DNA of 64,000 bases from Bacteroidales bacterium (GTDB lineage Bacteria; Bacteroidota; Bacteroidia; Bacteroidales; WCHB1-69), in assembly GCA_017395245.1 (NCBI GenBank), contig JAFPVR010000101.1, positions 38,536-102,535 on the forward strand, read 5' to 3'. Made by a program: the position numbers and the translations under genes. The notes below the pieces were generated by a model. That model ran no database searches. It saw nothing but the letters and a program-made list of their open reading frames with translations, and had not been told where the DNA came from. Shown piece by piece: positions 13,485 to 59,700 of this stretch (position 1 is the first letter of the stretch; every line of letters starts with the position of its first letter).

Positions 13485-14288
13485 CTAATCCGAAAGCATA
13501 TTCTGGTTCTCATAATTCTCCAACACCTTCATTTGCTGAATGGCAATCATATTCAACTTTTCCAAACGTTCGCTCTGGGGAAGGCCTTCGTTTATGAACA
13601 CAGCGTTCAGATTTTCCAAGTTCGAAAGGCATATCAGTTGATTCATCGTGGCATAGTCGCGAATATTCCCCTTCAAGTTGGGATTCGCCTCACGCCACTC
13701 CTTGGCGGTCATTCCGAACATCGCCACATTCAGCAGATCCGCCTCGTCGGCATACACGTATGACTTTTGCGCGGCGGTGAGTTTGTCAGGAATCAGACAT
13801 CGCTGGATGGCACTGGTATGGATTCGGTAGTTGATCTTCGCCAACTCCCGTTTCACGCTCCATCCTAATAGTTTCTGTTCAGCCTCTTTCAGACGTTGGA
13901 ATTCTTTGACAATGTAAATCTTAAATTCCGGACTTATCCACATGGCGAACTCAAAAGCGACATCTTTATGAGCGTATGTGCCCCCATATCGTCCAGCCTT
14001 TGCCTGAAGACCGACTGCGTTTGTTCGAGCGACGAACTCTTTCACACTGATTTTAAAACTGTTTAATCCGGACTGGCTTTTAATTAGGGCGAATTCGCCA
14101 TAATTAAAAAGAGGATTATAAACCCGCTCCCAAACGCCCAAATACTCAAGAGTATTGCGATTTCTTAACCAATCTGTAACGAAGAAGTCCCCGTCTTTTG
14201 CCTTTATCATATCCGTTAAGCAGAAATAATCTTCATTGTTGACTTTGACAACTGTCACTTCCGTGTCTTGTACTTTAATCTTTGCCAT
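13485..14288 (-). CDS. KilA-N domain protein
   Basis: A 267-residue protein. I set the start at the ATG at 14288 (MAKIKVQDTEVTVV). Residues 1-150 carry a KilA-N-type DNA-binding domain: DYFCLTDMIKAKDG, WLRNRNTLEYLGVWERVYNP, then RYGGTYAHKDVAFEFAMWIS and KIYIVKEFQRLKE. The C-terminal 110 residues are helical (NYRIHTSAIQRCL, AAQKSYVYADEADLLNVAMFG) and are known from phage-antirepressor-like proteins of Bacteroidota. KilA-N domains occur in large DNA viruses, phages and accessory regions. The gene has its own strong promoter in shared module A (14316-14451). Its function is unproven; a DNA-binding phage-related role is likely. Confidence 0.85.
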   Translation of the reverse strand: MAKIKVQDTEVTVVKVNNEDYFCLTDMIKAKDGDFFVTDWLRNRNTLEYLGVWERVYNPLFNYGEFALIKSQSGLNSFKISVKEFVARTNAVGLQAKAGRYGGTYAHKDVAFEFAMWISPEFKIYIVKEFQRLKEAEQKLLGWSVKRELAKINYRIHTSAIQRCLIPDKLTAAQKSYVYADEADLLNVAMFGMTAKEWREANPNLKGNIRDYATMNQLICLSNLENLNAVFINEGLPQSERLEKLNMIAIQQMKVLENYENQNMLSD

Positions 14289-14315: not shown

Positions 14316-14451
14316 CAAATATACAACGCGGAGATACCCTTTGTCAAGAGTTTTGAATTTTTTTTATTTCTTTGGTTGTCAGCTTGATACAAAAATCCCA
14401 TTAACTAATCGAGGCCGAATAGTTAATTTTTGGAATAGGTTTTCGCAGAAA
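14316..14451 (-). promoter_or_regulatory. shared promoter module, copy A (KilA-N gene)
   Basis: Read on minus: TTTCTGC (14445-14451), 18 bp, palindrome TTAACTATTC-N6-GATTAGTTAA (14401-14426), 53 bp, TTGAC (14343-14347), 19 bp, TATATTTG (14316-14323). The same blocks with the same spacings precede the genes at 23024, 40911 and 52999. Confidence 0.85.
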
Positions 14452-14582: not shown

Positions 14583-15288
14583 ACTAATATGAATCTTCCA
14601 ATATGTCAAAGAGCGTCTGAAATCCGCACGCGGGCGGATTCCAATTTCGGGCATTCAGCATACCGGACGGATTTCAGGCGGCAAGCATGACGAATACGCC
14701 AAAAACTTTGCAAATATACAAAAAAACGGAGGCTTTGTCAAGGGGTAAATGCATTTTTAACGATTTTTAAGAGCTTTCAGCCTCTGTTTTCCCCATTTTC
14801 CTTTCCTATTCCACTCATTATCCGTCAATTCGGAGCTTAAAGGCTGTAAGTAGCTGGTTGTCAATCGTTAATGCAACACCATGCCAGCGGCGCAGCCGCG
14901 CAGTGTGGTGACAGGACGAGCGACGGGACACTGAAGTGAGGCCCACTCATACTGACTATCGCCATGTCTCTCCTCAGCATCTCGGAGAGATGCGACATCT
15001 CAACAGTCCCACCATCGCCTCCACCGGCACAATGCTGTCCATCAGCCCGATGCGGGAGGAGGCGGCGATTTCGGCAAGCTGTGTGTCCTCCACTCTCTTG
15101 CGAATCACATTCTGATGTGGAGAATAATTAAACGCAGGGTGTTTCTGTTTTCAGAAAAAATGTATTTTTACGGCGTGAAGGGTTCAGTCCCTTCCAAGGG
15201 AATTCAGTTCCCACCCCAAACCCAAAACAAATATTATACAAAAAAACGATGAACAACGAAACAAGCAGCAATTTACCGAACGAAACTT

Positions 15289-15549: not shown

Positions 15550-18500
15550 TCACACCCCTTTTTCAATCATTGCAATCTCCTCCTCCGTCAACCCATACAA
15601 CTCATACACCAACCCGTCAATCTCACGTTCCAACGCTAAAGTGTCGGCATTAGGATTGTGCTTCTTCAATTGTATTATTTTCATTGCATTTGACGAAATA
15701 AACTCCTGAATCGCATCATCAGCTTTGAGAAATGGAAGTTGTTCTATTGTTGACTTATTTATTGCCAAATAGCCTCCTGCCAGATGTTTGTCTTTGAACT
15801 TGCAACGTAGATAATATGATGTGTATTTTGAATTCAGCAAGCCCGTTATGTAATATGGATTATAATTATTGAAAGCAGTGATTGCATATGCACCAACACC
15901 AAGAGCGAGAGGCGTGTCAACGTATGTCGCTTCTATCACTTTTGTCATTCCTGCAATCACTATTTTTGGGGACATCCACATTCTTAACTTACTATTCGCA
16001 ACATCACAATCTGTCCTAATGTACGCATTATGGTATTTCGTCTTCATATACCGAACATCATTGTTGTTGAACAGATATCTGTCAATATTTCCACTTACAG
16101 TAAAAGGAATAACATTCCCACTTTCTCCATCTATGACATATTCTTTTATAACTTGTGCCTCAAATCCAGTAGCCCCAGAACACACCTCTATTCCACAATC
16201 TTTTATTGTTGAAGAAGCATTCAACTCTTTAATTGGTCTTGCTTTATTGAAAAGCAAATCTTCGTATCTATCCAATGTGTATTTACAAAAATCTTTGTCA
16301 GATAATTTAGAACCACATAAGATTATAGGATAAACGCTGGCATTTTTAAACACTTTAAAAACCGAAACATCAACGCTTGAATATAGTCCATTCTGTTCCA
16401 AAAAGTCCTTTGTCTTTTTTGCATAATCTGCAATCAGAAACTTGTTAGGAATAATCCAAAAGAAAACATTCTTGGTTAACATTACACCTCTCAATAAAAA
16501 CAATACATATATGTCGTACGCTCCTGTCGCTTGTGGATAGTTTCTCTTGTATATAAACTTCTCATATTCAGTTCTTGCCATTTCAACGGCACTAATATAC
16601 GGCGGATTCCCAATCACTATATCAAACCCACCCTTATCGAAGATGTCCTTGAACCAGGTATGCCAGAGGAAGAACTCCTGGTTGGCGGAGGGGTTGAGGG
16701 AGGAGAGACGGGCGACGGCTTCGGGACGGAGATCCTGATGACGGATGTAGCTCTTCACGCTGTCGTTGATCTCGCGACGCGCCTCCGCCTTCTTCACATG
16801 GTCGGTGAGGCTGAAGTATTCGCGCAACATCAGCTGGAGATTGCGCTTGGTGTCGGTGCTCACGAACTCGATGCCTAATTGGTTAGCCCCCGCTTTCTGC
16901 CTTCCCTTCCCCAAACTGCTGTGCTGACCGTCGCTGCTCATCATCCGGCTCAAATCCACCCCTTCGAAGCTCTCTATCAGACTGTTGCCCTGCATGAACT
17001 TGTAGTCGAAGTTAGGCAGGGCCTGCGGCTCCTCGCTGTCAACCACAATGCTCAACCAGAATCGCAAGCGGGCAATGTCGATGGCACCCCGCTCGATATC
17101 GACCCCGTAGATGTTGTTTTCGATGATCTCGCGCTTGAGGGCGGCACGGGATTGGGTTGATGACGATGGATCCATTGATGGAGACGCAAAATATTGCGTC
17201 TCTACAACAGGGGATAACGATATTGCCTCCCTACACCGCCACAATTCGTTTAACAATCCCATCGGGAACGCACCTGAACCAATGGCCGGGTCGCAGATCT
17301 TCACCTCGCGCAAGGCACGGTCGAGGGTGTCGCGGTAAGGTTCCAACTCGGATGGGAATTCGTGGGTTTCGACAAAGGTGCGGATTTTGGAGCCAACTGC
17401 GTCCTCGCAGTTGGTATTTCTCGCATCTGCGGGGACGCATGTGTTTCCTGTTTTTCCATCTGCTGGGAAGCAGATGGCTCCTAAATACGCAATCAACGAT
17501 TCCTTGCACATATACCGCACAATCTCCTTCGGGGTGTAGAACGCGCCCTTGGCCTTGTTGTCCTCCAGAAGGCTCTCGAAGATCTTGCCCAACATTTCGG
17601 GATCAACACCAATCTCGGCATCGTCGGGGTCGTTTTCATCGACGGTGAAGTTGTAGGAGGCCAAGAAGGTGAAAAGGTCGTTGAATAATGAAGCCGGCAG
17701 CCTTATGTTCATCTTATCGACTTCGTCGCGTTCGAACAAACCGCCGTTGAGATACGGCAAATGCTCCCATTGTTTCAATAAATCCTTGTCCCAATGTTCG
17801 TTAGCAAACAGTTTCTCACGTTGTTCTGATTCGGTGTTGAAGATACCGAAAAAGAGCGGTTCCAGAACCTGTTCGAGGAAGTCAGCCTGATAAGGACTGG
17901 TGAGAAATAGGTCGCGCAAGAACGACGGATTGCCGTTGAGCCAGCCTTTTTTCTGCAGGAAGTGCAGAAACACAATGCGCCCCATCATCTTCTTGACGTA
18001 GTCGTGGAGAATCGTTGGAGATATTCCGTCGGTAGAGACGCAAAATTTTGCGTCTCTACAACAGGATTGCATAAGATATGCCACAATCCGGTCGTAATGG
18101 ATATGGTATTCGTCGAAAAACTCATCGCTGAGCGCATCCACCGAGAACGATTCCTTGAGGTCGGACAGCTTTATGTGACCATTCAGCTTGGCCACCTTCT
18201 CCAATCGCTCAAGCGGTGTTTTGTATTGCCCGTTTTCGTCACCCATGATATAAGAGAAACGTTTGGCCGAGGTGCTGCCCTCCTTGAGGTCACAGATGTA
18301 GGACAAACGCCAGTGCCGACCGTCGTCGAAAACGGCAATGGCTCCGTCCACATCATATTTCAAATAAGGACTGATCAATTTGCGTAGGCCCACACGCTTG
18401 CGGCGAACATCACCGCCTTCGGCCACGCGGGTGTAGAAGAAGCCGAGCAGACGATGGTCGGCATCATCCATCTGACCGATGAAAAAACTTTGGTCGCCTT

Positions 18501-18633
18501 CAGCGTTGGTATCGAGCAATTCGGGATGAGAGGCCACATCGTGGCAACCGAAAAGACGATGCACGATTTCGTGACTATAAGTGGAATAGTCGAACGGCGA
18601 CTTGAAAATCTGACGGAGGGTTTCGATATTCAT
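15550..18633 (-). CDS. Eco57I-like N6-adenine DNA methylase/restriction-type protein
   Basis: A 1027-residue protein. GAFYTPKEIVRYM lies near residue 364. The SAM-binding motif DPAIGSGAFPMGLLNELW is near 448, NIYGVDIERGAIDIARLRFW near 530, and the catalytic NPPY in DIVIGNPPYISAVEM near 678. This order is that of Eco57I/type IIG-like N6-adenine methylases, with a target-recognition-like C-terminal region. I see no clear PD-(D/E)XK nuclease motif at the N-terminus, so cleavage may depend on the partner. It starts 8 bp after the stop of the helicase/PLD gene, a tight two-gene operon. Three segments (near residues 195, 385-415 and 478) are translated palindromic repeats inserted in frame. The likely role is self/non-self DNA marking in an anti-phage system. 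Confidence 0.85.
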   Translation of the reverse strand: MNIETLRQIFKSPFDYSTYSHEIVHRLFGCHDVASHPELLDTNAEGDQSFFIGQMDDADHRLLGFFYTRVAEGGDVRRKRVGLRKLISPYLKYDVDGAIAVFDDGRHWRLSYICDLKEGSTSAKRFSYIMGDENGQYKTPLERLEKVAKLNGHIKLSDLKESFSVDALSDEFFDEYHIHYDRIVAYLMQSCCRDAKFCVSTDGISPTILHDYVKKMMGRIVFLHFLQKKGWLNGNPSFLRDLFLTSPYQADFLEQVLEPLFFGIFNTESEQREKLFANEHWDKDLLKQWEHLPYLNGGLFERDEVDKMNIRLPASLFNDLFTFLASYNFTVDENDPDDAEIGVDPEMLGKIFESLLEDNKAKGAFYTPKEIVRYMCKESLIAYLGAICFPADGKTGNTCVPADARNTNCEDAVGSKIRTFVETHEFPSELEPYRDTLDRALREVKICDPAIGSGAFPMGLLNELWRCREAISLSPVVETQYFASPSMDPSSSTQSRAALKREIIENNIYGVDIERGAIDIARLRFWLSIVVDSEEPQALPNFDYKFMQGNSLIESFEGVDLSRMMSSDGQHSSLGKGRQKAGANQLGIEFVSTDTKRNLQLMLREYFSLTDHVKKAEARREINDSVKSYIRHQDLRPEAVARLSSLNPSANQEFFLWHTWFKDIFDKGGFDIVIGNPPYISAVEMARTEYEKFIYKRNYPQATGAYDIYVLFLLRGVMLTKNVFFWIIPNKFLIADYAKKTKDFLEQNGLYSSVDVSVFKVFKNASVYPIILCGSKLSDKDFCKYTLDRYEDLLFNKARPIKELNASSTIKDCGIEVCSGATGFEAQVIKEYVIDGESGNVIPFTVSGNIDRYLFNNNDVRYMKTKYHNAYIRTDCDVANSKLRMWMSPKIVIAGMTKVIEATYVDTPLALGVGAYAITAFNNYNPYYITGLLNSKYTSYYLRCKFKDKHLAGGYLAINKSTIEQLPFLKADDAIQEFISSNAMKIIQLKKHNPNADTLALEREIDGLVYELYGLTEEEIAMIEKGV
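17181..17205. repeat. R1 palindrome inside methylase CDS
   Basis: GAGACGCAAA...TTGCGTCTC sits in the methylase gene without breaking the frame, encoding roughly VVETQYFAS. It is followed by a Ser-rich stretch. Confidence 0.85.
17390..17476. repeat. triple palindromic insert inside methylase CDS
   Basis: Two perfect hairpins, CCAACTGCG/CGCAGTTGG and CCATCTGC/GCAGATGG, flank a middle unit containing CGCATCTGCGGGGACGCATG. The insert lies between the YTP region and the SAM-binding motif and encodes a Cys/Asn/Ala-rich peptide. Confidence 0.75.
18032..18059. repeat. R1 palindrome inside methylase CDS, N-terminal half
   Basis: A complete R1 unit (GTAGAGACGC, AAAATTTT centre, GCGTCTCTAC) lies in frame, encoding CRDAKFCVST. 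Confidence 0.9.
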
Positions 18634-18641
18634 TGCTGGGT

Positions 18642-21600
18642 TTATTTGAAGGTTTCACTTAAAATGATGTCGGCGGCGGTGTAGGCCATCTGCTTGGTTT
18701 CGGTCTGCGTCTGTGACTGGCTGTAGCGTCTGTCCAACTCCTCAAGCTGTTCCTGTATCTTGAGAAGCGGCACTGGCTCTTTCTTCTGCTTTCTCGAAAT
18801 ACGGTTGAGGGCATCGGCTAACTGGTTGTAGGCGCCGCGTTCCACCATCTGCTTCAGACGGTCGAGGATGCTGCGACCTTCTTCGTCGAGCAGAGGCCGC
18901 ACCTCGCGCAGGAAAGCGGCGGCTTTTTTGGCGTCGTTGTCTTTGCTGCCGATTTTGAGCTTGTCTTCCTGATATTCGCGCTGCTGGTCGAGGGTGTATT
19001 GCCTCAATGCGGTCTGTACCTGCGCGTAATGGAGGTCTGCGCTGTCACCGAATGGCACTGCTTTTTCATCGGGTTCCGCATGGAATATGTCGGCGGCTTC
19101 GAGGAAAGAGAGCTCGCGGGTGGTGTCACCGACGAAGTAGAAGGCTTTTTTGAGGGGAGAGGACAGGTATGTGATGGTCTTAGGTAGCGTCTCTTCGAGA
19201 CGCAGTTTGGTCGCGGCGTCTTCTGCCCCACACTGCGTTCCTTGTGTGGGGTTATTGAGATGGTGTCTCTTCGAGACACTGGCGGAAGTGCCCTTAAAGT
19301 CGATCATCTCCGAGACACTGGCGGAAGTGCCCTCGATGTCGAACATCTCCGATACACTGGCGGAAGAACTGTTGGGTCCTGATGTATTCAAAACGGTGGC
19401 TGTAGAATCGTTGGCGGGACAAAAGAATTTCGAGGCTCTGGCGCAGCGGCTTTTGGGTGGAAGCTGCTTGATGCGGCGATAGAGCTTGGGGTTTTTGTCG
19501 TGAAGGGCACGCACTTCGCGCAGTAGTTCCAGACTACGGTCGGTTTCATCACGCACGTCGGTGTTGAAGAGTTTGAACTCGTGTACCAGCTCGTCGTGCG
19601 AATAGATTTTGGTATCCTCGCCGAGGGCGGAATGGAAACTTTGCAGCTTGATGAGGGAGTTCTTCTTCAAACTGATGATGGCGTCGCCGGGATCGGAAGG
19701 GTAGAACATGTAGTTGTGGATGGCGGTGGCGGTGGAGCCGATACGGTTCACACGCCCGATGCGCTGCATCAACCGCGTGGCATTCCACGGACTGTCGTAA
19801 TTGACGATAACATTGGCCCTGTGCAGGTTCACGCCTTCGGCCAGCACATCGGATGTAATCACGATGTTGTAGTCGTTACGCCACTCTTCTTTGTACTTGG
19901 CATCGAAGTTAGCCTGAATCGTTTTCTGAAGTCGCTTGCGGTTTTTGGCGCACACGGCCAGAATGTCTTGACGATGCAAACGCTCTTTCAACTCTTTTTC
20001 CAGATAGTTGACGGTATCCACGCTTTCGCTGAATACCACTAATTTACCGCCCGGATTCTTCTCCTTGTCGAACAGTTCCCCTTGCAGCATGTTGATGAAA
20101 AGTTCCAGCTTGGGGTCGGATTTCACTTTGTCCCATCGTTGGCACAGCTTGTCCAGCACATCGGCATCATACTCCAACATCGGCAGGAAATCGGGCTTGA
20201 AATCGGCCGCGTGGAAGAGTATCTCTTTCTGGTCGAACCCTTTGCCGATGGCCAGTTCTATGATTTCGTCCAACTCGACCCCGTCGGACTGCAACTTTTT
20301 CACATTCAACTCGGGGGCGATGATGACTTTGTCTTCCTGGAACATTTTTATCATCCCTTTTGTGGCTTCCAAAAGGGTGTGGAGCGAGCGACGAAAAGCA
20401 TCGAAACTGCTTTCCAGCCGTTTGACCATGTGCGTCTGATAGATGGAAGCAAGCGAATCGGCCATGTGTTTCGCCATTTTACCGGAAGGGACTTTATACG
20501 AAGGACAATATTCAATGGCACGATAACGGGCGTAATGCAGGCCGCTTCCGTTGAATATATCTGAATTCACCTCCTTCAGATTGGCTGATGGCGTGTCCAC
20601 CAGTTTTATGTAAGAGTCGATAAAGAGTTTCAGCAATTCGGGCGACATCTGATAAGTGCGGTCGGTGGGGTCAAGCAGCTGCGGGAAATGTATTTCATTG
20701 GCATAGCGGGGCTCGTGCTGGATATTGCTGCGGGTACGGCGCACCATCACCTTCTCCAATACCTTATGGCGAAGATCCTGATTGATAGCGTCGATACGGT
20801 TGGTAAGGAAACCAGCACTCATTGTGCGACGCTGCGACATAAGGCTCTTGAATTCCTTGATCCACGGGGCAAACGTGTCGGCAATATTGCTGACTCCGTC
20901 AATCGTGCAGCGTGCAACATCCTGAAACAGCAGCATTTGGTTCTTGATATCCTCGGGCGTGTTGTTGAGCGGCGTGGCCGAAAGCAGCAGCACCCGTTTG
21001 TCCCCTTTGACATTGCCCTTGTTCAACCGTGCTGACTTGCAGATGCGTTGCAGCAGGTCGTAGTTGCAGTTGCTGTCGCGTCGGAAATTATGCGCCTCAT
21101 CGACAATAATGAGGTCGTAGTATTCCTTCTCATCGTAACCGTCACCCTCGATGACTTTTTCAAGACTGCCGTTGGTGATAAAACGGCTGTATTTGTTCTT
21201 GATTTGGAAATCCTTGAAAGTATCCTCCCAGTTTTTTTGCACGGAGGGCGGAAATATGACGAGGATGCGAGTGTTATCCCCATTGGCGGCGATAAACCGC
21301 TGGGCAATCATGGCTGCCACCACGGTTTTGCCCAAACCCACCACATCCGCAATGAAGCATCCGCCGTGCCGCATCATAATGTCGTATCCTTGCACCACAG
21401 CATCGCGCTGATAGGTGAGATCATCGTAATTGTCGGGAAGATGAGGAATGAAATCGTCTTCGACCTGGTTGCCGAAATGGTCGATAAGCATTCGCATATA
21501 GAGCTCGTAAGGCGTAGGTTGATGCTCGGGCGACGCAAGGTGAGTCCCATCCGTTATGTGAATCACATCATCCACAGTCACTGGTATGGCATCGTTCCAT

Positions 21601-22178
21601 AGATGTTGAAACTCTTCCTCGCAGTAATGCACATCGTCATAGTCCTTCATGGCCACATTCAATTCGTAACGTGGCGGTTCGGTAGTGCCAAGCCCTTGCG
21701 CACTAAGGTTGCTGCTGCCCATAATGACCCAGCCGTCGCTGTGCTCATTGTGTTCTTTAGGCAAGCAGAGGTAAAACTTCGCGTGAAGGTCTTTCGTGGG
21801 ATGGATGCGCAACTGCAAACGTCCATCGGCAATATCGGTGCAAAACTGGCGGATGCCCTCATCCACTTCGGAAGAGTATTCCGACTGATAGACATCGCGG
21901 AGAAAATCCTTACAAAATTGTTCGAAACTTGCATCCTTGTCGCCAAAGAAAAGTTTGCCAGCGGCTTGCGATTGGCGAAAAAGATTGTCGATGTTGATGC
22001 CGACGAGGATGAGGATTTCTTGTACGTGGTCCAGCTCGCGGCGCAGCTTGAAGTAGCCCGACGAGCGGAAATAGCCGACCACAGCGTGGAAAAGGTCGAA
22101 GTTGGCCATCGACCGGGCGATGCCGCTGAACTTGCCGATGAGCGGCGCATCGGTGTTGTTGAAGAATTTGGTGCTCAT
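18642..22178 (-). CDS. PLD-nuclease/SNF2-family helicase fusion
   Basis: About 1178 residues from the ATG at 22178 (MSTKFFNNTDAPL); a TTG at 22226 in the same frame is less likely because it lies within a leader hairpin region. The N-terminal 160 residues form a phospholipase-D-type nuclease domain, with HAKFYL near 134 and GSSNLS near 154. A superfamily-2 SNF2-like helicase follows: Walker A VGLGKTVVAA (~283), DEAH in LIIVDEAHNFR (~360), LLLSATPLNN (~399), then LAEGVNLHRANVIVNYD and QRIGRVNRIGS in the second lobe (~760). The C-terminal 200 residues are charged and coiled. Residues about 913-1000 are a repeat-derived insert. It forms a tight operon with the methylase. It probably translocates on and cuts unmodified DNA; this is inferred from architecture. 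Confidence 0.85.
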   Translation of the reverse strand: MSTKFFNNTDAPLIGKFSGIARSMANFDLFHAVVGYFRSSGYFKLRRELDHVQEILILVGINIDNLFRQSQAAGKLFFGDKDASFEQFCKDFLRDVYQSEYSSEVDEGIRQFCTDIADGRLQLRIHPTKDLHAKFYLCLPKEHNEHSDGWVIMGSSNLSAQGLGTTEPPRYELNVAMKDYDDVHYCEEEFQHLWNDAIPVTVDDVIHITDGTHLASPEHQPTPYELYMRMLIDHFGNQVEDDFIPHLPDNYDDLTYQRDAVVQGYDIMMRHGGCFIADVVGLGKTVVAAMIAQRFIAANGDNTRILVIFPPSVQKNWEDTFKDFQIKNKYSRFITNGSLEKVIEGDGYDEKEYYDLIIVDEAHNFRRDSNCNYDLLQRICKSARLNKGNVKGDKRVLLLSATPLNNTPEDIKNQMLLFQDVARCTIDGVSNIADTFAPWIKEFKSLMSQRRTMSAGFLTNRIDAINQDLRHKVLEKVMVRRTRSNIQHEPRYANEIHFPQLLDPTDRTYQMSPELLKLFIDSYIKLVDTPSANLKEVNSDIFNGSGLHYARYRAIEYCPSYKVPSGKMAKHMADSLASIYQTHMVKRLESSFDAFRRSLHTLLEATKGMIKMFQEDKVIIAPELNVKKLQSDGVELDEIIELAIGKGFDQKEILFHAADFKPDFLPMLEYDADVLDKLCQRWDKVKSDPKLELFINMLQGELFDKEKNPGGKLVVFSESVDTVNYLEKELKERLHRQDILAVCAKNRKRLQKTIQANFDAKYKEEWRNDYNIVITSDVLAEGVNLHRANVIVNYDSPWNATRLMQRIGRVNRIGSTATAIHNYMFYPSDPGDAIISLKKNSLIKLQSFHSALGEDTKIYSHDELVHEFKLFNTDVRDETDRSLELLREVRALHDKNPKLYRRIKQLPPKSRCARASKFFCPANDSTATVLNTSGPNSSSASVSEMFDIEGTSASVSEMIDFKGTSASVSKRHHLNNPTQGTQCGAEDAATKLRLEETLPKTITYLSSPLKKAFYFVGDTTRELSFLEAADIFHAEPDEKAVPFGDSADLHYAQVQTALRQYTLDQQREYQEDKLKIGSKDNDAKKAAAFLREVRPLLDEEGRSILDRLKQMVERGAYNQLADALNRISRKQKKEPVPLLKIQEQLEELDRRYSQSQTQTETKQMAYTAADIILSETFK
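19180..19440. repeat. repeat-derived insert in helicase CDS
   Basis: Contains a short GAGACGC-type hairpin and an R2 CCCCACAC/TGTGGGG hairpin (19226-19257). It also holds three copies of a 39-bp tandem unit starting at 19272, 19311 and 19350, encoding T-S-A-S-V-S-E-M-x-D-x-x-G. The frame stays open throughout. Confidence 0.85.
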
Positions 22179-22179
22179 G

Positions 22180-22212
22180 GGCACAGGCAATGTCCGGCAG
22201 ATTCCCTGTGCC
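22180..22212 (-). promoter_or_regulatory. hairpin just upstream of helicase start codon
   Basis: A perfect 8-bp stem GGCACAGG/CCTGTGCC with a 17-base loop ends one base before the ATG codon (22176-22178). It could limit ribosome access. Confidence 0.65.
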
Positions 22213-22249
22213 GCAGTTGTTGGCAATCACTCGTTTCCCAAATCCACAT

Positions 22250-22846: not shown

Positions 22847-22981
22847 TTTCTGCCAAATCTCGAGCTGTAATTTAACAATTTCACGTTGAATAGTTAAATC
22901 TTGTTTTGCATTGCTTTGAAAACCAGCCGGATAAAAATTTCCAAAAAGACTTGACAAACGCTTCGGTTTGTTGTATCTTTG
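22847..22981 (+). promoter_or_regulatory. shared promoter module, copy B (first RhuM-like gene)
   Basis: TTTCTGC (22847-22853), 18 bp, palindrome TTAACAATTT-N6-GAATAGTTAA (22872-22897), 53 bp, TTGAC (22951-22955), 18 bp, TATCTTTG (22974-22981). The ATG follows 42 bp later. Confidence 0.85.
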
Positions 22982-23023: not shown

Positions 23024-23887
23024 ATGGAACAGAATAAAGACATAAGACAAAACGGCGAAATCATCCTCTACCAACCCGACAACAGCATCCAGTTGGAGGT
23101 GCGGATGGAGGAGGAGACGGTGTGGCTCACGCAGGCGCAGATGGCATTGCTTTTCGGATGTTCCCAAGATAATGTTGGCCTCCATCTAAAAAACTTATAC
23201 GCAGAAGGGGAAATCGAACAAGATGCAACTACCGAGGAAATCTCGGTAGTTCGATTTGAAGGAAACAGAAGGGTTACCAGACGGATCATGCATTATAATT
23301 TAGATGCTATCCTATCGGTAGGTTATCGCGTTAGTTCAAAAAACGCCACTAAATTCCGCCAGTGGGCGAACGCTGTGCTGAAAGAGTACCTCCTTCGCGG
23401 TTATGCAGTCAACCAACGGATTGAACGGTTGGAGCAGCGTGTCAGCAAAACGGAAGAGCAAATCGGCCTCTTCGTGTGCACCTCATTGCCGCCCGTCGAG
23501 GGCATCTTCTACGATGGTCAGATCTTCGACGCCTACGCCTTCGCCTCCGACCTAATCCGGTCGGCAAGGAAACGCGTCATCCTCATCGACAACTACATCG
23601 ACGAGTCCGTGTTGATGATGCTGGCGAAGAGAGAGGAGGGAGTGACGGCGGATATTGTCACGCGGCGCGTCACCGAGGCGCTGACCCTCGACCTCGAACG
23701 CCACAACCGGCAATACTCGCCCGTGGATGTTCGGGAGTGCGACCGCTACCACGACCGCTTCCTCATCATTGACGACACGGTGTATCACCTCGGCGCATCG
23801 CTCAAGGACCTCGGCAAGAAACTGTTCGCGTTCAGCAGGATGGAGGTGAGGGTGGGGAAAATAACGGAGGGTGTTTTTACCGAATAA
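23024..23887 (+). CDS. RhuM-like protein with PLD-like C-terminal domain, copy 1
   Basis: A 287-residue protein. Residues 12-118 match the RhuM/virulence-protein family: EEETVWLTQAQMALLFGCSQ is a helix-turn-helix-like recognition region, HYNLDAILSVGYRVSS follows, and KFRQWANAVLKEYLLRGYA closes the domain. A short coiled segment (RIERLEQRVSKTEEQI) leads to a C-terminal domain with IDNYIDESVLMMLAKR and DRYHDRFLIIDDTVYHLG. That resembles one half of a phospholipase-D site with Arg in place of the usual Lys, so catalysis is uncertain. It is driven by shared module B. The next gene is a near-copy. A DNA-binding accessory or phage-linked role is likely; the precise function is unknown. Confidence 0.8.
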   Translation: MEQNKDIRQNGEIILYQPDNSIQLEVRMEEETVWLTQAQMALLFGCSQDNVGLHLKNLYAEGEIEQDATTEEISVVRFEGNRRVTRRIMHYNLDAILSVGYRVSSKNATKFRQWANAVLKEYLLRGYAVNQRIERLEQRVSKTEEQIGLFVCTSLPPVEGIFYDGQIFDAYAFASDLIRSARKRVILIDNYIDESVLMMLAKREEGVTADIVTRRVTEALTLDLERHNRQYSPVDVRECDRYHDRFLIIDDTVYHLGASLKDLGKKLFAFSRMEVRVGKITEGVFTE

Positions 23888-23922: not shown

Positions 23923-24768
23923 ATGGAACAGAATAAAGACACAAGACAAAACGGTGAAATTATCCTTTACCAGCCCGACAGCAGCATCCGGCTGGAGGTG
24001 CGGATGGAGGAGGAGACGGTGTGGCTCACGCAGGCGCAGATGGCGATGTTATTCGGTGTTGACCGCACCGTCATCGTGAAGCATATTGGAAACATATTCA
24101 AAACCAAGGAATTGGAAGAATCTCCAACATGTGCAAAAATTGCACAACTTCAACAAGAAGGGAACAGACAGGTTTTGCGAGAAGTGAAATATTACAACTT
24201 GGACATGATTATTTCTGTTGGATTTAGAGTCAATTCCATCAATGCAACACGCTTCCGCCAATGGGCGAACCGCGTGCTCAAAGACTACCTCCTTCACGGT
24301 TACGCAGTCAACCAACGGATTGAACGGTTGGAACAGCGTGTCAGCAAAACGGAAGAGCAAATCGGGCTCTTCGTGCGCACGGCTCTGCCGCCCGTGGAAG
24401 GCGTCTTCTACGACGGCCAGATCTTCGACGCCTACACTTTCGCCTCCGACCTAATCCGCGCGGCAAGGAAACGCATCGTCCTCATCGACAACTACATTGA
24501 CGATTCCGTGTTGATGATGCTGGCGAAGAGAGAGGAGGGAGTGACGGCGGATATTGTCACGCGGCGCGTCACCGAGACCCTGACCCTCGACCTCGAACGC
24601 CACAACCGGCAGTACCCGCCCGTAAATATTCGGGAGTGCGACCGCTACCACGACCGCTTCCTCATCATCGACGAAACGGTGTATCACCTCGGCGCGTCGC
24701 TCAAGGACCTCGGGAAGAAGCTGTTTGCGTTCAGCAGGATGGAAATCAAGGCGGAGGAGATAATGTAG
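23923..24768 (+). CDS. RhuM-like protein with PLD-like C-terminal domain, copy 2
   Basis: A 281-residue tandem paralogue 35 bp after copy 1, with the same short leader (AACCTA(T)AAAnAAAAATCAAA type). Residues 1-43 and about 105-275 are almost identical to copy 1, at DNA level too. Residues 44-104 are replaced: FGVDRTVIVKHIGNIFKTKE and REVKYYNLDMIISVGFRVNS stand where copy 1 has a different sequence. The swapped part is the helix-turn-helix-like recognition region, so the two copies probably read different DNA sites. The stop codon lies inside an R1 palindrome (24765-24790). It probably depends on module B for transcription. Confidence 0.8.
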   Translation: MEQNKDTRQNGEIILYQPDSSIRLEVRMEEETVWLTQAQMAMLFGVDRTVIVKHIGNIFKTKELEESPTCAKIAQLQQEGNRQVLREVKYYNLDMIISVGFRVNSINATRFRQWANRVLKDYLLHGYAVNQRIERLEQRVSKTEEQIGLFVRTALPPVEGVFYDGQIFDAYTFASDLIRAARKRIVLIDNYIDDSVLMMLAKREEGVTADIVTRRVTETLTLDLERHNRQYPPVNIRECDRYHDRFLIIDETVYHLGASLKDLGKKLFAFSRMEIKAEEIM

Positions 24769-40353: not shown

Positions 40354-40911
40354 CTAGCATACAGATCCTCCCTTAGCCGCCTTGCGCACGCGAGCCATAC
40401 GCTCACTGAAACCGCCATTCGCCACAAAATCCAGTTCCAGGCGCTGAAGTTGCCGAAACAAAAGATAATCGGTTTGGTTGAGCAATATTATACACATGTT
40501 GGCAATGGTCTCTGGCGGTCGTGTTTTAGCAAGACGCATAAAAAACGCAACATCGTTATGTTTCCTCCCTAACTCCCTCATACAATTATACTCAACAGAG
40601 CCCACCTCCCATTGCCGGAATCCGCGTGTCTTAAGAAAATCCTCGTAGTCCTCCAAAAGTTCTTTAAGACTAGCCTTGGCTACACTCACCAGGCGAATCT
40701 CTGTCTTAGCGGAAGTTGGACTTGCCGCGCAACCCTCCACTATGTTCTGCTTTCCAGACCGCGCCGCTTGCAACATTTGATCTCGGGTACGGTCTCCTTT
40801 CTTCAAATAATGCGTTATAAAATAAAAGGTTAAACAAAAAATCACGTTCGCTTTCTGATAAGAAATCAGCTTTTTGTAGTTCCCTTTGTTCGGGATGATT
40901 TTTTCATTCAT
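40354..40911 (-). CDS. four-helix-bundle suffix-domain protein
   Basis: A 185-residue all-helical protein of the 23S-rRNA-intervening-sequence-like four-helix family. YQKANVIFCLTFYFITHYL leads the first helix, then RTRDQMLQAARSGKQNIVEG, the hallmark of that family, and SLKELLEDYEDFL. The C-terminal FVANGGFSERMARVRKAAKG matches the '4-helix suffix' domain. Function is not known; the family is scattered in Bacteroidota and often lies next to mobile or accessory genes. It is expressed from shared module C (40995-41130). Confidence 0.88.
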   Translation of the reverse strand: MNEKIIPNKGNYKKLISYQKANVIFCLTFYFITHYLKKGDRTRDQMLQAARSGKQNIVEGCAASPTSAKTEIRLVSVAKASLKELLEDYEDFLKTRGFRQWEVGSVEYNCMRELGRKHNDVAFFMRLAKTRPPETIANMCIILLNQTDYLLFRQLQRLELDFVANGGFSERMARVRKAAKGGSVC

Positions 40912-40994: not shown

Positions 40995-41129
40995 CAAAGA
41001 TACAACAAAAGGAATCCTTTGTCAAGGGTTTTGAAAAATTTATTTCTCGCTGAAAGCCAAACAGATACAAAATTTTCGTTAACTATTCGCCCACGAATTG
41101 TTAATTTTTGAGATCGAATTTCGCAAGAA
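40995..41129 (-). promoter_or_regulatory. shared promoter module, copy C (four-helix-bundle gene)
   Basis: On minus: TTCTTGC (41123-41129), 18 bp, palindrome TTAACAATTC-N6-GAATAGTTAA (41079-41104), 53 bp, TTGAC (41021-41025), 18 bp, TATCTTTG (40995-41002). Confidence 0.85.
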
Positions 41130-51992: not shown

Positions 51993-52999
51993 TTATCTGG
52001 CCATCATAGCCAGAATATCACTCTCGGCCAGGCCGCTTGCTTCCGCCAGGACTGCCGCATCAAGGCCGTCAGAAAGCAGCTTTCGGAGAATCTCAATGCG
52101 ACCTTGCTCAAGACCTTCTTGCTTTCCTCGCTCATAACCAGCCTGTTCCGCCTCTTTTCGTTCGCATTCCACCATCTCATGCACGCTGGGGTAGTCCATC
52201 AAGCTCCTGACATAATCCTGTTTTTCCATATTCGTGAAATTTGAGATTTGACATTCCTCATAGAAGCGCATCTGCATGGGTGTCAGAGCGTTAACTTCCT
52301 CTTCTTGCAAATACACTACATTAGTGAACATGTAGAGAATAAGGTTTCGCTCGTCGCTCATGTCAAGCGTTTCCAATTGCGCGGCAAATTTACTCAATTC
52401 AACGAAATAATAAACAATATTTTTTGTAAAAATATCATTGTCGTCATCTTTGTTGTAAATCCTTGAGAAGAAACGCTTCTTCCCTTTGAACTCCGGCATA
52501 TCGTAACTCATTATGTTAAAGGAGTATATCTTCGGCACATGCTTGTAGTACTTGTCTTTCTCATCCCAATTCTGCACGGTGGCGAGACTGGTATTGACCC
52601 GCAGCCGGTCAACATAGTTCTCTTGCTTCCCGTTCTGCATCTCCACGATGAATCGTTTGCCGTCCTGGTTTTTGCAGTAGAGGTCGTAACGGACAAACTT
52701 GTCCTCTTTCCGTATGCTGAGCATTTCCGTAGGCAGGTAGGAATATCGGTGATGATCCCTGTGTCATCGGAGATGAATACGTTCAGAAGGTGCATCAGTA
52801 TGTCCTTGTTGCGCTCTGAGGCCAGCAGCCGCTTGAACCCGTAGTCGGAAAGCGGATCCATGACCTTCAAGTTGTGCTCCTTGATGTAGGCCTCTGTCTC
52901 TTTAAGGCTCGGGAGTTTCCTTTTGTTTTCCTTTTTTGTTCCAGACGGTTTGGACTGTTTAGTCTTCTGTGTCTTTTGTCTTCTTGTTTTTTTCGACAT
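51993..52999 (-). pseudogene. PD-(D/E)XK nuclease/putative transposase (Rpn-like), frameshifted
   Basis: A gene of about 335 codons split by a one-base shift. The 5' part (52999 to about 52740) encodes a Lys-rich start and NLKVMDPLSDYGFKRLLASE, KDILMHLLNVF. The 3' part (about 52740 to 51993) continues with YLPTEMLSIRKEDKFVRYDL, FIVEMQNGKQ, and YYFVELSKFA. Homology to the Rpn/PD-(D/E)XK 'transposase' family continues across the break, with the acidic D and E-x-Q residues present. The frame changes near 52740 in ATATTCC. It may be a true pseudogene, a programmed shift, or a sequencing error. The promoter is shared module D. An R1 repeat lies in the leader. Confidence 0.8.
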
Positions 53000-53134: not shown

Positions 53135-53270
53135 CAAATATACAACACGGGAACACCCTTTGTCAAGTGTTTTGAAAAATTTTTATTTCACTGGTTGTCA
53201 AACCAGTACGGAAAACGCCTTAACTAATCAAGGAAGAATAGTTAATTTTTAAGACGACATTTCGCAGAAA
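53135..53270 (-). promoter_or_regulatory. shared promoter module, copy D (PD-(D/E)XK nuclease gene)
   Basis: On minus: TTTCTGC (53264-53270), 18 bp, palindrome TTAACTATTC-N6-GATTAGTTAA (53220-53245), 53 bp, TTGAC (53162-53166), 19 bp, TATATTTG (53135-53142). The nearest relative of module A. Confidence 0.85.
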
Positions 53271-53714: not shown

Positions 53715-56700
53715 ATGAAAAAGATTTATCAATTGGGCATTACCATGCTCCTTTTGCTGGCGGCGACACTGCCGGCGACCTTCGCCTACAACTTCGAGAG
53801 CGGCGGTATCTATTACAACATCACAGGTGTCTCGCCCAACACGGTGGCGGTCACCTACGCCACGGGTTCCTACAACAGCTACTCCGGCACGGTGGACATT
53901 CCGGGCACCGTGACCTACAACGGCACCACTTACACGGTGACGGCCATCGGCAACAGCGCATTTCGGAGTTGCTCGAATCTTACTGGTGTGACGATTCCGA
54001 ACACGGTGACGAGTATTGGAGAGTATGCGTTTTCTTCGTGTTCGCATATAACCTCTGTAACGATTCCCAATGGGGTGGAAACGATAGGTGTGAGAGCGTT
54101 TTACAATTGTTCTCAATTGTCTACATTGACAATTCTGAATGGGGTGGAAATCATAGGGGCGAGCGCGTTTTACCACTGCAACTTGCATACCGTAACGATA
54201 CCCGCATCAGTGACCTCAATCGGAAGTGATGCTTTTTCTTGTAGTAATTTGGATAGCGTATTTTTCAAAGCAACCAACTGCTCATCTGCTGCTAATGCAT
54301 TCGAAAATTGCAGCCATCTTACTTATTTGAATATCGGCAGCAATGTTCAAACAATCCCGGCAAACATTTTTGCGTACTGTAATGCATTGCGGTCTATTTA
54401 TATACCCAGTTCTGTTTCGACTATCGGGACTAACCCCTTCCATCACTGTCATGGATTGGACACCATCATAGTGGAAGAAGAGAACAGCGTCTATACAAGT
54501 GGTAACCACTACAATGCCATAATCCATTCTGCCACTCATACTTTGGTGACGGGTTGTAAAAGCACTGTCATTCCGAATTCAGTTACTCAAATAGGTGGTT
54601 ATGCATTCGCTGGGTGTACAGGATTAACAGGTCCATATACCATCCCGAATCAAATCATCGTAATTGGAGCTTCTGCATATTCTGATTGCACAAGCCTTAC
54701 ATCGCTGACAATCGGACACAATGTAGATTCTATTGGGAATTCTGCTTTCTCTGGCTGTAGTGCAATTTCTTCCGTCGCTTTTAATGCGGATAGCTGTAGA
54801 TACATGGGGGCTGGTTTCTCTTCTTGTAACAGTTTTTCAACTCTGGCAATAGGTAACAACGTAAAAGCAATCCCCGCATATGCCTTTAGAGGCTGTTCAC
54901 ATTTGACTGGGATGTTGGTTATTCCTGACTCCGTTAAAACTATAGGAGAATATGCGTTTAATGGCTGTTCCGGTTTGACTTTGTTGTCTATTGGTAATTC
55001 TGTCACCTCAATCGGCAACTCTGCGTTCTACAGTTGCAACGAAATGGGAGGGACACTAACTATCCCGCAATCAGTAAAAAGTATTGGATCTTCCGCATTT
55101 TACAATTGTCCAGGATTTACATCTTTGGTGTTCAATGCGGACAGTTGTGCAACGGGATCCTTTTCTAGATGCAGTAACGTGTCCACCTTGACCATCGGGG
55201 ATAATGTCAAAATAATTCCTGAAAGTGCATTTAGCGGCCTTAGCCTTATTACAGGAACTCTAACTCTTCCGAGTACTTTGATGTACATTGGAGGATCAGC
55301 TTTTAGTAATTGTAGCGGTTTAACAGGTCTGATAGCCATACCCGATTCAGTCCAAGCCATCGGAAGCTATGCCTTCCAAAACTGTAGCGGACTCACTTCG
55401 CTTACTATTGGAAAAGCAGTGTCAAACATCGGAAGCTATGCCTTCCAAAACTGTAGCGGATTAGCTTCTATTGCGTTTAATGCTGACAGTTGTGTTTCGA
55501 TGGGGATAGGTTCCAATGATAACCCTGTTTTTTCTGGTTGTACAAACGCAGCAACTTTATCCATCGGGGAAAACGTAAAAACAATTCCTGCATACGCATT
55601 TTATAATCTCACCGGTTTGACAGGCCCGACAACAATCCCCGATTCGGTCCAAAACATTGGACACTATGCCTTCAAAAACTGTAGCGGATTAACATCCTTG
55701 ACTATCGGGGAAGCGGTATCAACCATCGGAGGCTATGCCTTCCAAAACTGTAGCGGATTATCTTCTATTGCGTTTAATGCAGACAGTTGTTTTTCTATGG
55801 GATCCTCTTATTCTCCTGTTTTCTCTGGTTGTACAAATGCAGCCACTCTATCCATCGGTGAAAACGTGAAAACAATTCCTGCTTACGCATTTTATAATTT
55901 CACTGGTTTGGCTGGTGCGATAACAATACCCAATTCGGTTCAATCCATCGGAGACTATGCCTTTCAAAACTGCATTGGTTTAACTCATGTGACTTTTAAT
56001 GCCGACAGTTGCACATACATGGGATTTTATAACCCATATCATGGAGGATATGATGGCAGCGTATTTAAAGGATGCGACAGTCTGTCAACACTAATATTAG
56101 GCGAAAATGTCAAAAACATCCCCGACTACGCCTTTTTCAATTGTTCCAAACTAAATGGAAAATTGACTTTTAGCAGAGTCACCCTCATTGGAACAAGCGC
56201 ATTTGAGGGTTGCAGCGAATTAGACTCGTTGATTATCGGCAGGACTGTTTCTTCGATTGGAACCTACGCCTTTAAAAATTGCATTGGTTTGTCCTACGTG
56301 GAATACAATGCGGACAGCTGCAATTCATCGGGTCACCTATTTACAGGCTGTACAGCCCCTGCATCATTAGTCATTGGCGAAAATGTAAAATCAATACCGG
56401 ACTATTGCTTTAGGAATTTCACAGGACTGTCGGGCACACTTGTCATCCCTGATTCCGTTAAAGTCATCGGATTTTCTGCTTTCAGCGAATGTACAGGTTT
56501 GGATTCCGTGATTATCGGGAAATCTGTGGCTTCTATGGGAAATGCGTTTAACGGGTGCTCTGGGCTATCGTACGTGGAATTTAACGCCGACAGTTGTATA
56601 GACGACAACAACTACTACACATTCAACGAGTGTGACAGTCTGTCTTCTTTGACTATCGGTAATAATGTGAAAATTATTCCAAACGATATGTTTAGAAATC

Positions 56701-59700
56701 GCTCAAGTCTGACAGGATGTATTAACATTCCAAATTCAGTTAAAACAATCGGGGAAGAAGCTTTCTTTAATTGCAACAGCATAGACTCTTTGATTATCGG
56801 GAAATCTGTCACATCCATCGGGAGTGATGCTTTTGAGAATTGTAGTGGATTGTCACACGTTGTGTTTAATGCGGATAGCTGCACAGCGGTAGGTATAAAT
56901 CTTGTCAGCGGTTCTATTGGTGGTACCATTTTTAACGGCTGCACACTCACGTCTACATTGGTTATCGGTGACAATGTGAAAAACATCCCTCAAAACATAT
57001 TCTATGGCCTTTCAGGATTACAAGGGACATTGGTCATCCCTGATTCCGTCGTCTTTATCGGAAGTTGTGCTTTCAAGAATTGTAGCAATTTGACAAATCT
57101 TGTAATAGGTAAGTCTGTGCGTGAAATCCAGCCAGGATATAACGCTCAATACTCCGCATTTGCTGGATGCGGTGGGATAACTTCCCTATCTTTCAATGCC
57201 GACAGTTGTATCGTTGCTGGAAATGCGAACTACCCCGCTTTTAAAGTGTTGTCAAATCTGACAACACTGTCCATAGGGGATAATGTGAAAGTAATTCCTG
57301 ATTATGCGTTCAGCAATTCCAAATTGACAGGGGAGCTTGTGATTCCCAATTCTGTTAAGTATATCGGACGTTCTGCATTCGAATGGTGCAACAAATTGAA
57401 TGGTGCGCTAATAATTCCGAATTCTGTCAAAACCATTGAAGATAATGCTTTTAAGTGGACCAATTTTGATTCACTTGTTATTGGAAAAAATGTATCACTC
57501 ATTGATACAGGAGCTTTCACCGGTTGTTCTCACTTGAAGCATGTGTCTTACAACGCGGATAGCTGTTCTTGTGCTGAAGGTATTTCAAATCGACCATTTT
57601 CCAATTGTGACAGTATCGTTTCCCTAACCATCAGCGACAATGTGAAAATCATCCCTGCATACGTTTTCAACGGCCTCAACCACATAACCGGTGAGTTAAC
57701 AATTCCGGACTCCGTCAAGATTATCGGAACTAGAGCATTCGCCAACTGCACAGGCATCTCCAAACTCATTCTCAGTCGCTCTGTAGACAGTCTGGGTGCC
57801 AGTGCCTTTGCTAACTGTACTGGCATCAACTCTATCTTTTCGTATAACAAAACACCGCCCGCTCCAGCATTGAATTCCTCTAATCCGTTTGACAATGTAG
57901 GCAGGAATTTCTTCGTTCACGTTCCCTGCGGAACTGCCGATGCCTATCGCGCTGCATGGCGCTATAATCAAAACGTTAGTTCTTCTTATTTCAACTACTA
58001 CGCTGATGATCTCCAGCCCTACCTCTTCACTGTCCTTTCCGATGACACCATCAAAGGCACCGTCCAAATCACCACGCAACCCACGTGTACAAGTCCTGCC
58101 GTTATTGAGGCCATGCCCAACTTTTTCTATGTCTTCGATCACTGGAGCGATGGGAACACGGACAACCCGCGTACGCTCACTCTTACTCAGGACACCACTT
58201 TGGTAGCGCACTTCAGAGAATATGACCTTAACATAAGCTGTGACACTAATTATGGTCATATTGTGTTTTTACAGATGCCAACAGCGGAAAACCCGCAAGC
58301 GGTTGTTCAAGTGGTGCCAAATCCCTGTTATCTATTCGGCTATTGGACAGACTATAAACATTCCGGATCGTCCGTGTGGTCGCTTAACGAAGAGTACGAC
58401 AATCCGCGTACCATTACGCTTTCGCAAGACACCACAATGGAAGTGAGTTTCCGATATGCGCACCCTGTAGATATTTCAAGTGACAGAACAAGTCTTTGTG
58501 AAGGAGATTCAACAGTGCTGAAAGGTGTCACCTACCCCGAAGCGTGGTCTGGCAACACGGCCATTCCCTCCAATTCCGTTACCGAAGGATTCCTTTGGGT
58601 GCGATACATTCCGACAGGGAGTGGCACTTACCAGAGGGACACATTGGGGTTGGAAGATAGCATTGTTGTATCAACGGCGGGGATATATAGAGTGATGGGA
58701 ATTGATTCCACTGGCTGTATCGCATACAGCACGATCTCTATGGAAGTCCATCCGTATCCAACGATTATGATTAGCGGCGAAACAGAAATCTGTGCAGGTA
58801 ACAGTACCACACTAACAGCGGGACTTTATGAATTTTCGGAAGACTTCACCAACGGAATTCCTACAGAATGGACGACAAATGGCGATGCTTTGGATATTTA
58901 TACTCTTAACGGCAACAGCGGAAACGCTATCCTTTTCCCTGCATACGATTTGCCTGAAAACACAGAGGCAGAACTGATACTGCCCGACATTAACTTGAAA
59001 CAGTTTGATCAACCATCAATAGGGTTCAAAATAGCCTACTACGGTCGATTATCCTCTTGCCATGATGTTTGGAACAGCACATACCCTTACTGGCAAAATA
59101 TTTGTGACACCATACGCAATGAGGATTTAAAAATCATGTTGTCCACCGATGGTGGAATTACCTGGACTGAAGTTTATCGGGCTTCAAATGATTACAGTTA
59201 TTATGATTATCAATGGTATGTTAGCGAAAATGCTTACTATCCGCAAAACATGTCCAACAGTCATGGGGGATGGGCAAATCTCTCTAATTTTTCCGATTAC
59301 GAAAATGTGAAGATAAAGTTTGTCTTCACTGGAGGCCAAGGCAATAATATGTGGTTAGATGATATCCAGTTGTATTCTGGCATCTATGATTATAATCTTT
59401 CGTATTTGTGGAGCAATGGCGGCGAAAATTCTTCGCAAACTTTTGATGATTCAGGCACATATTATGTGACTGTTTCGAATCGCATAGGTAGTTATTGGGA
59501 TGCTATGCAGGAAAATTGGATTCAAACCAAATGTTCTACCACTGATTCCGTCACTATCACCGTTTGGGAGCCGTCTGACACGACTGAAGTCACTGTTAAC
59601 ACTCCCGAAAGTTATTATGTAATGAACGGCGAGACTTTCTGCACCTCAGGTGATTACACACAGACCTTGCAGAACATCCACGGATGCGACAGTGTTGTAA

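Follow-up and report, generated by a model that had tools for sequence, protein, structure and literature searches.

Orphan protein families such as ORF6N, RhuM, KilA-N, DUF1016, PDDEXK_2 and the four-helix-bundle proteins are common and mostly unexplained in Bacteroidales, and the invertible promoters of this order consist of a promoter plus inverted sequence. Mobile promoters are expected as near-identical recent copies. The sigma-ABfr promoters of Bacteroides carry TTTG at -33 and TAnnTTTG at -7, and by the consensus quoted from PMC7366714 the pair TTGAC/TATnTTTG alone is an ordinary Bacteroidetes housekeeping promoter; as quoted, that consensus lacks a TTTC block, a palindrome, an 11-bp dyad and any fixed spacing of 53 bp. 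Stretches that carry a promoter and are repeated ahead of unrelated genes within a genome have been described in summary as putative mobile promoters (Matus-Garcia, Nijveen and van Passel 2012, as relayed by PMC4596501 and PMC8049555). The promoter module described here likewise occurs as many copies before unrelated genes of one genome and shows discrete gain or loss at orthologous sites (DUF2851 and comEC); unlike mobile promoters, its copies are diverged (mean column identity of 68 % over 67 non-redundant copies) and near-constant in length, carry a far-upstream palindrome and are found throughout one genus of uncultured gut bacteria. Its last 31-32 bp fit the sigma-ABfr -7 box, and TTGAC contains the TTG of the -33 region. 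The titles and opening lines of abstracts in the literature searched held no description of the module, nor of one under TTAACTATTC.

We identified four copies of the module in the window, the whole 64,000-nucleotide stretch analysed here, at the places and on the strands given by the original prediction, and all four palindromes agree with its pattern without a mismatch on their own strand. Copy 1 (14316..14451, minus strand; profile R1 E=5.6e-26, at G000:C89:52850-52992) is built of a TTTCTGCG block, a palindrome at 14401-14426, a 53-bp spacer, TTGAC, 19 bp and TATATTTG, and lies in front of a KilA-N domain gene (13485..14288, minus strand; Pfam 3.2e-24) that matches the PADLOC single-gene candidate PDC-S22 (3.4e-127). 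Copy 2 (22847..22981, plus strand; palindrome 22872-22897; R1 E=9.8e-26) precedes the first of two RhuM-like genes (23024..23887, plus strand; Pfam 7.8e-23; PADLOC PDC-S05/S23 4.1e-123), and the second, directly behind it (23923..24768, plus strand; Pfam 1.4e-23; PADLOC PDC-S05 1.6e-127), presumably shares its transcript. Copy 3 (40995..41129, minus strand; palindrome 41079-41104; R1 E=4.6e-28) stands before a four-helix-bundle gene of the 23S rRNA intervening-sequence-like type (40354..40911, minus strand; NCBIfam TIGR04258 1e-20), whose product has no PADLOC match and matches the Pfam model 23S_rRNA_IVP below that model's cut-off. Copy 4 (53135..53270, minus strand; palindrome 53220-53245; R1 E=1.1e-26) precedes a PDDEXK_2 (Rpn-type) gene (51993..52999, minus strand) that is split into overlapping frames at 52511-52999 and 51993-52724; its assignment (Pfam 1e-35) is taken from a scan of the intact relative L006, an uninterrupted 357-aa protein at G000:C3 with its own module. 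The four downstream proteins had been called non-homologous, and Pfam and NCBIfam place them in unrelated families.

The spacings had been read from these four copies as fixed apart from one base in the last gap. The distance from palindrome to TTGAC is 53 bp in all four, but it is not strictly exact, ranging over 51-54 bp across the module family. The gap between TTGAC and TATnTTTG is 18 bp in the RhuM and four-helix copies and 19 bp in the KilA-N and PDDEXK copies, as predicted. A TTTCTGC block 18 bp before the palindrome was recovered by pattern in three of the four; in the four-helix copy the pattern matched an earlier TTTCTTGCG instead, and alignment puts TTTTCTTGCGAAA in register as its TTTC-type block. 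The PDDEXK copy has an extra TTGAC 18 bp behind the palindrome in addition to the promoter TTGAC at 53 bp. The TATnTTTG of the window copies fits the predicted TAnnTTTG -7 element of a sigma-ABfr promoter.

Outside the module, genes for a type IIG-like (Eco57I) restriction-methylase and an HKD/PLD-SNF2-helicase (15550..22226, minus strand; Pfam and PADLOC) lie between the first two module genes and are likely a defence pair. Since the KilA-N and RhuM genes flank them, two of the four window copies adjoin this likely pair; no such neighbour was seen for copies 3 and 4 among the few ORFs scanned. A weak partial module match (14710-14814, minus strand; model positions 56-153, E=0.0016) lies upstream of copy 1 and is promoter-like, with no palindrome. 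Divergent from copy 4, a 3349-aa BspA-type leucine-rich-repeat protein with a secretion-system sorting tail is encoded at 53715-63764 (plus strand).

The module recurs far above chance. With up to 3 mismatches allowed, the palindrome was matched eight times on the two strands of the window; 100 shuffles averaged 0.02 matches and never reached eight. In the genome of origin (3.78 Mb, 129 contigs), which was searched for palindromes without requiring a promoter, all 16 palindromes with ≤1 mismatch sit in modules; 15 have TTGAC...TATnTTTG at 52-53 bp, and the sixteenth is interrupted by a contig end. The reversed palindrome pattern gave no match in that genome, and a single palindrome with two mismatches (C99:93726) lies outside any module. 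The original prediction had proposed that chance occurrence of the palindrome at this spacing be assessed genome-wide, and it withstood that comparison. An operator-like site thus recurs before many transcription units, in this genome and in the genus, at a position fixed relative to the promoter.

We compiled 76 module copies from 72 listed matches, of which two were removed (L008 plus and L120 plus, each a palindrome read towards a divergent gene), and six copies added by hand; the alignment A1 contains 67 of them, one being too short and eight redundant. Each target gene has a promoter module of its own, about 135-145 bp long, and across the 67 non-redundant genus copies the order is TTTCYTGCGAAA, about 13-14 bp, an A-rich run, TTAACWATTC-N6-GAATAGTTAA, about 53 bp, TTGACAAA and TATnTTTGC. 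The palindrome has a left half-site TTAACWATT and a right half-site AATWGTTAA, measures 26-27 bp or, in a compact form, 18 bp, and is invariant in its arms at TTAAC, A7, T9 and their partners. The 53-bp stretch holds an 11-bp dyad, YTGRnnnYCAR, and an A/T tract. By a loose criterion, 71 of the 76 copies have an ORF of 45 aa or more starting within 420 bp on the promoter side, and the other five reach a contig end within 184 bp; a later copy, L374, has no ORF on its promoter side within 2.5 kb.

Spacer length was measured in 65 of the 67 aligned copies, the other two having no TTGAC 48-58 bp behind TTAAC-N16-GTTAA. It is 53, 52, 54 and 51 bp in 43, 15, 6 and 1 copies respectively (52-54 bp in 64/65), although most of these copies were found by a pattern permitting only 50-56 bp; the own-genome set (52-53 bp in 15/15) is free of that bias because it was found by the palindrome alone. 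Pairwise identity over the first 20 spacer bases is 39 %, and over the 17 bases left of the module 31 %. Near-constant length despite free sequence is the main argument that the module is functional. Where a genome has few strict modules, profile-found copies (score ≥40) place the left half-site 78-79 bp from TTGAC in 23 cases out of 32, and 13 of the 31 such copies measured have the 18-bp palindrome. This compact form, TTAACTATTAATTGTTAA, also occurs in some G000 copies (e.g. L303 and L304); the two palindromes look like two operator forms that differ by 8-9 bp and keep the left half-site at a similar distance from the promoter. The dyads had also raised the suspicion of an RNA or attC-like single-strand fold, which was rejected: RNAalifold predicts no pairs on the 67 copies, and the central N6 of the palindrome shows neither compensatory change nor an excess of compensation. 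Within the 11-bp dyad only the outermost tested pair is clearly above shuffles for compensation.

The strict pattern, defined as palindrome, 50-56 bp and promoter, was found in 15 of 40 genomes of the genus, in none of 64 other genomes of the family and in none of 394 other genomes of the class sample. Profile R1, whose E-values are rough, matched every one of the 40 genus genomes at E≤0.01; the best match is ≤1e-7 in 37 (the exceptions are G015, G021 and G023), among them 22 of the 25 genus genomes that contributed no copy to the profile; the genome of origin has 22 matches at E≤1e-10. Weak R1 matches were present in 6 of 21 genomes from other genera of the family (best 8e-7 to 4e-11), which we chose from the 64, mostly the more complete ones, and under stricter filters two weak matches were found in 1 of 118 other class genomes. 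DUF5618 in two genomes of another genus carries a weak version of the module. An ABC-transporter-like gene, assigned by eye and forming one BLAST cluster, occurs in G000 and in G043 of another genus (L316 and L323) behind a weak module-like promoter with no palindrome. All 61 stretches with the strict pattern in named records, a listing that may omit records of the genome of origin, are titled uncultured Bacteroidales or Bacteroidetes, and many of the titles mention rumen, reindeer, yak, sheep or buffalo.

To describe the genes behind the module we clustered 157 downstream proteins, which derive from copies we chose to fetch rather than from all genus copies, leave out three duplicates and include weak modules with nhmmer scores down to 15. 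The largest clusters, named like the others after scanned representatives, are ORF6N/RhuM (39), DUF5618 (17), a small secreted protein (17) and PDDEXK_2 (16), followed by an uncharacterized family (8 members), four-helix (7), DUF2851 (5, against 11 in the ortholog scan), HicB-like (4; a label given by eye, two scanned members yielding no Pfam match and HTH_3 under the cut-off), a 159-aa family (4), Y1 transposases (4, in two clusters), Gp49/RelE-like (3), a 135-aa family (3), ComEC (3; Pfam PF03772 1.7e-58), DUF1016 (2) and others. Twenty Pfam families were found in 80 of the 157; the other 77 were judged by cluster and by eye alone. The prediction would have been refuted by random genes behind the module, and this is not what we observe: the same families recur, with non-homologous genes behind copies within one genome. 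At certain loci the genes stand in tandem, every one behind a module of its own (ORF6N, DUF1016, KilA-N, DUF1016 at L437; DUF1016, KilA-N, DUF1016 at L439). In G000 the module is on 3 of 10 DUF5618 and 2 of 3 ORF6N genes, and these families thus also occur with no module. The small secreted-looking family (L365:682-1242 and 15 relatives, A2) has two invariant cysteines and extends over many species including distant ones; its scanned member L013 has no Pfam match.

A number of these proteins match candidate defence models of PADLOC: KilA-N is PDC-S22 (3.4e-127), RhuM is PDC-S05/S23 (4.1e-123), ORF6N is PDC-S05 and DUF1016 is PDC-S02 (3.4e-96). PDDEXK_2 gave a weak match, the four-helix, DUF2851, DUF5618, small secreted and 8-member-family proteins scanned gave none, and of the first 10 module-driven proteins scanned, 5 were without a match at 1e-3. 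For a controlled comparison (A4), 33 of the 157 proteins were dropped (weak modules, doubtful or short ORFs and the broken window PDDEXK piece), and 80 representatives at 85 % identity were set against 80 random picks from 191 neighbour ORFs. Model PDLC04869 (PDC-S05) matched 17 of the 80 non-redundant module-driven proteins, whereas no single model matched more than 1 of 80 in the neighbour control. This figure reflects both defence content and the repeated appearance of one superfamily; the control ORFs also show scattered matches to several defence models. The defence function of the module genes is a candidate one, the label resting on PADLOC candidate models. According to the portion of PMC13356809 consulted, PDC-S02 and PDC-S05 are abundant in rumen genomes too; the PADLOC candidates are protein families, and shared regulation of them is not mentioned in that portion.

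The module is real and genus-wide, and comparative evidence leads us, with moderate confidence, to a regulon that spans the genus and would place candidate defence and mobile genes under a putative dimeric regulator, its members having joined by gain of the module as a unit. A putative dimeric DNA-binding protein would sit on the palindrome, with its centre 66 bp upstream of TTGAC and roughly at -100 from the start, on a fixed helix face, and may be assisted by factors bound to the TTTC box and the 11-bp dyad on either side of it. This regulator would conditionally activate a strong, near-consensus sigma-ABfr promoter (TTGAC, 18-19 bp, TATnTTTG); activation is preferred over repression only because the site is far upstream and does not overlap the promoter. 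As output, many single-gene units would be expressed in concert, most of them candidate genes of anti-phage or mobile-element type, with ORF6N, RhuM, KilA-N, DUF1016, PDDEXK_2, DUF5618, toxin-antitoxin-like genes and Y1 transposases as proposed targets; the small secreted protein and, in some members of the genus, DUF2851 and comEC would be included. A gene may enter the regulon through a module gained as a unit, alone or together with the gene. The inducing signal could be phage or foreign DNA, which is a guess from gene content. A common regulator and promoter-plus-gene cassettes had been offered as alternatives; these are not mutually exclusive, and the comparisons point to both. Counting against the regulon are core genes (DUF2851 and comEC) that fit no simple defence theme, families that are not tied to the module, four sister species whose DUF2851 has no module, degraded palindromes in the copies retained by G003, G031 and G038, a central N6 that shows no compensatory change, and the module-driven proteins that have no PADLOC match.

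Evidence on how the module is gained and lost bears on a first alternative, rather unlikely in our judgement, in which it is a mobile promoter, a short dispersed repeat copied before genes that gives constitutive expression with no dedicated regulator. At orthologous core genes the module is all or nothing: of the 35 genomes in which the DUF2851 state was read, 11 have it (scores 50-111), as do 3 of the 37 read for comEC (scores 93-107), and the others of these show no match to the module. The rest of the genomes gave no match to the gene or, for G021, a fragmentary one only. In the module-less form of DUF2851 one block is absent, from the TTTC box to just before TRTATCTTTGC, the -7 element; no target-site duplication is evident by eye at the junctions. 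Two sister genomes, G029 and G039, have the comEC module, and so, on a separate branch, does G038, which by its ComEC falls with G003 and G016; branch support around these is weak. This distribution could reflect two gains, one gain followed by losses, or a transfer. In the 8-member family 16 of 21 copy pairs have homology beginning at -25 to -28, where the first T of the TTTC box marks the module's left edge, and the remaining five share more flank. In 12 of those 16 pairs the homology stops at +735 to +767, the gene end, the other four involving L127 with its shortened gene. Such an edge marks the end of conserved sequence and is by itself no proof of movement. Gene order around this family is locally shuffled at L433-L436 and L008 with respect to a DNA-alkylation-repair gene (by eye), the corresponding Pfam family, PF08713, matches three control ORFs, and in some copies a piece of about 97 bp recurs upstream of and inside the reading frame.

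Against a mobile promoter stand the near-constant length of the module although part of its spacer is near-random in sequence, its long vertical retention at DUF2851, and the 71 of 76 copies that face an ORF by the loose criterion above; a palindrome some 100 bp upstream would also be unnecessary for a constitutive promoter. In the four window copies no inverted repeats of at least 10 nt bound the module. A MITE was rejected for the same four copies on its missing terminal inverted repeats of that length, as was an invertible promoter, since the promoter does not lie between inverted repeats of at least 10 nt and a single palindrome is found upstream.

The retention at DUF2851 also enters into a second and improbable alternative, ordinary descent, by which old gene families each kept an ancestral promoter, the likeness of the modules reflecting shared ancestry and a general strong promoter of the genus. 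The DUF2851 module is confined to 11 of the 15 species of one clade, the other four being sister species, which fits one gain at the base of the clade and one loss in the four-species subclade, as we read it from a midpoint-rooted ComEC and DUF2851 tree with some weakly supported inner branches. Vertical inheritance therefore suits this gene, and modules of ORF6N genes are alike across genomes, giving family-specific module subtypes. Species whose ComEC proteins are 62-78 % identical share 93-98 % identity in their four-helix and DUF5618 proteins; the flanks of these genes also retain some similarity, so that slow evolution and transfer are not separable there. Descent is weakened by the comEC and DUF2851 pattern and by the same gene families occurring with no module, and, with downstream proteins from unrelated families, a common descent of their promoters is impossible without copying.

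The comEC and DUF2851 genes also suggest a competence-like regulon for DNA uptake and processing, in which comEC, DUF2851, nucleases and single-strand transposases would be switched on together. ComEC (PF03772) lies behind the module in three species, and Y1/IS200 transposases and several PD-(D/E)XK families are among the targets. The module is present at only 3 of 37 comEC loci, and 12 of the 15 genomes with strict-pattern modules are among the 34 in which comEC has none, for which reason we keep this as a minor rival with little probability. No DprA, ComF or ComM was found among the 20 Pfam families in 80 of the 157 downstream proteins, the match at a RecA-like gene (by eye) in G099 mainly covers the promoter part, and DUF2851 is not named in the part of a Riemerella transformation screen consulted (PMC8459023). 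An origin as a phage- or plasmid-derived promoter on mobile elements is highly improbable despite the phage-like gene content, as core genes carry the module too, one scan of viral contigs gave no strict-pattern match, and plasmid and phage records gave no blastn match with window copy 1 as sole query.

Returning to the regulon, a bolder form of it is tentatively conceivable from the comparative data, in which one dedicated regulator would act as a genus-wide immune and mobilome switch over up to about 20 single-gene candidate defence or toxin genes per genome and, in some species, also over DUF2851 and the DNA-import channel gene comEC, each gene having been wired in by gain of the same phase-locked promoter unit. 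DUF2851 and comEC provide a natural with/without series for studying how genes join a regulon. A shared phase-locked promoter would put the orphan families in one physiological programme, and one inducer and one regulator would make their role testable.
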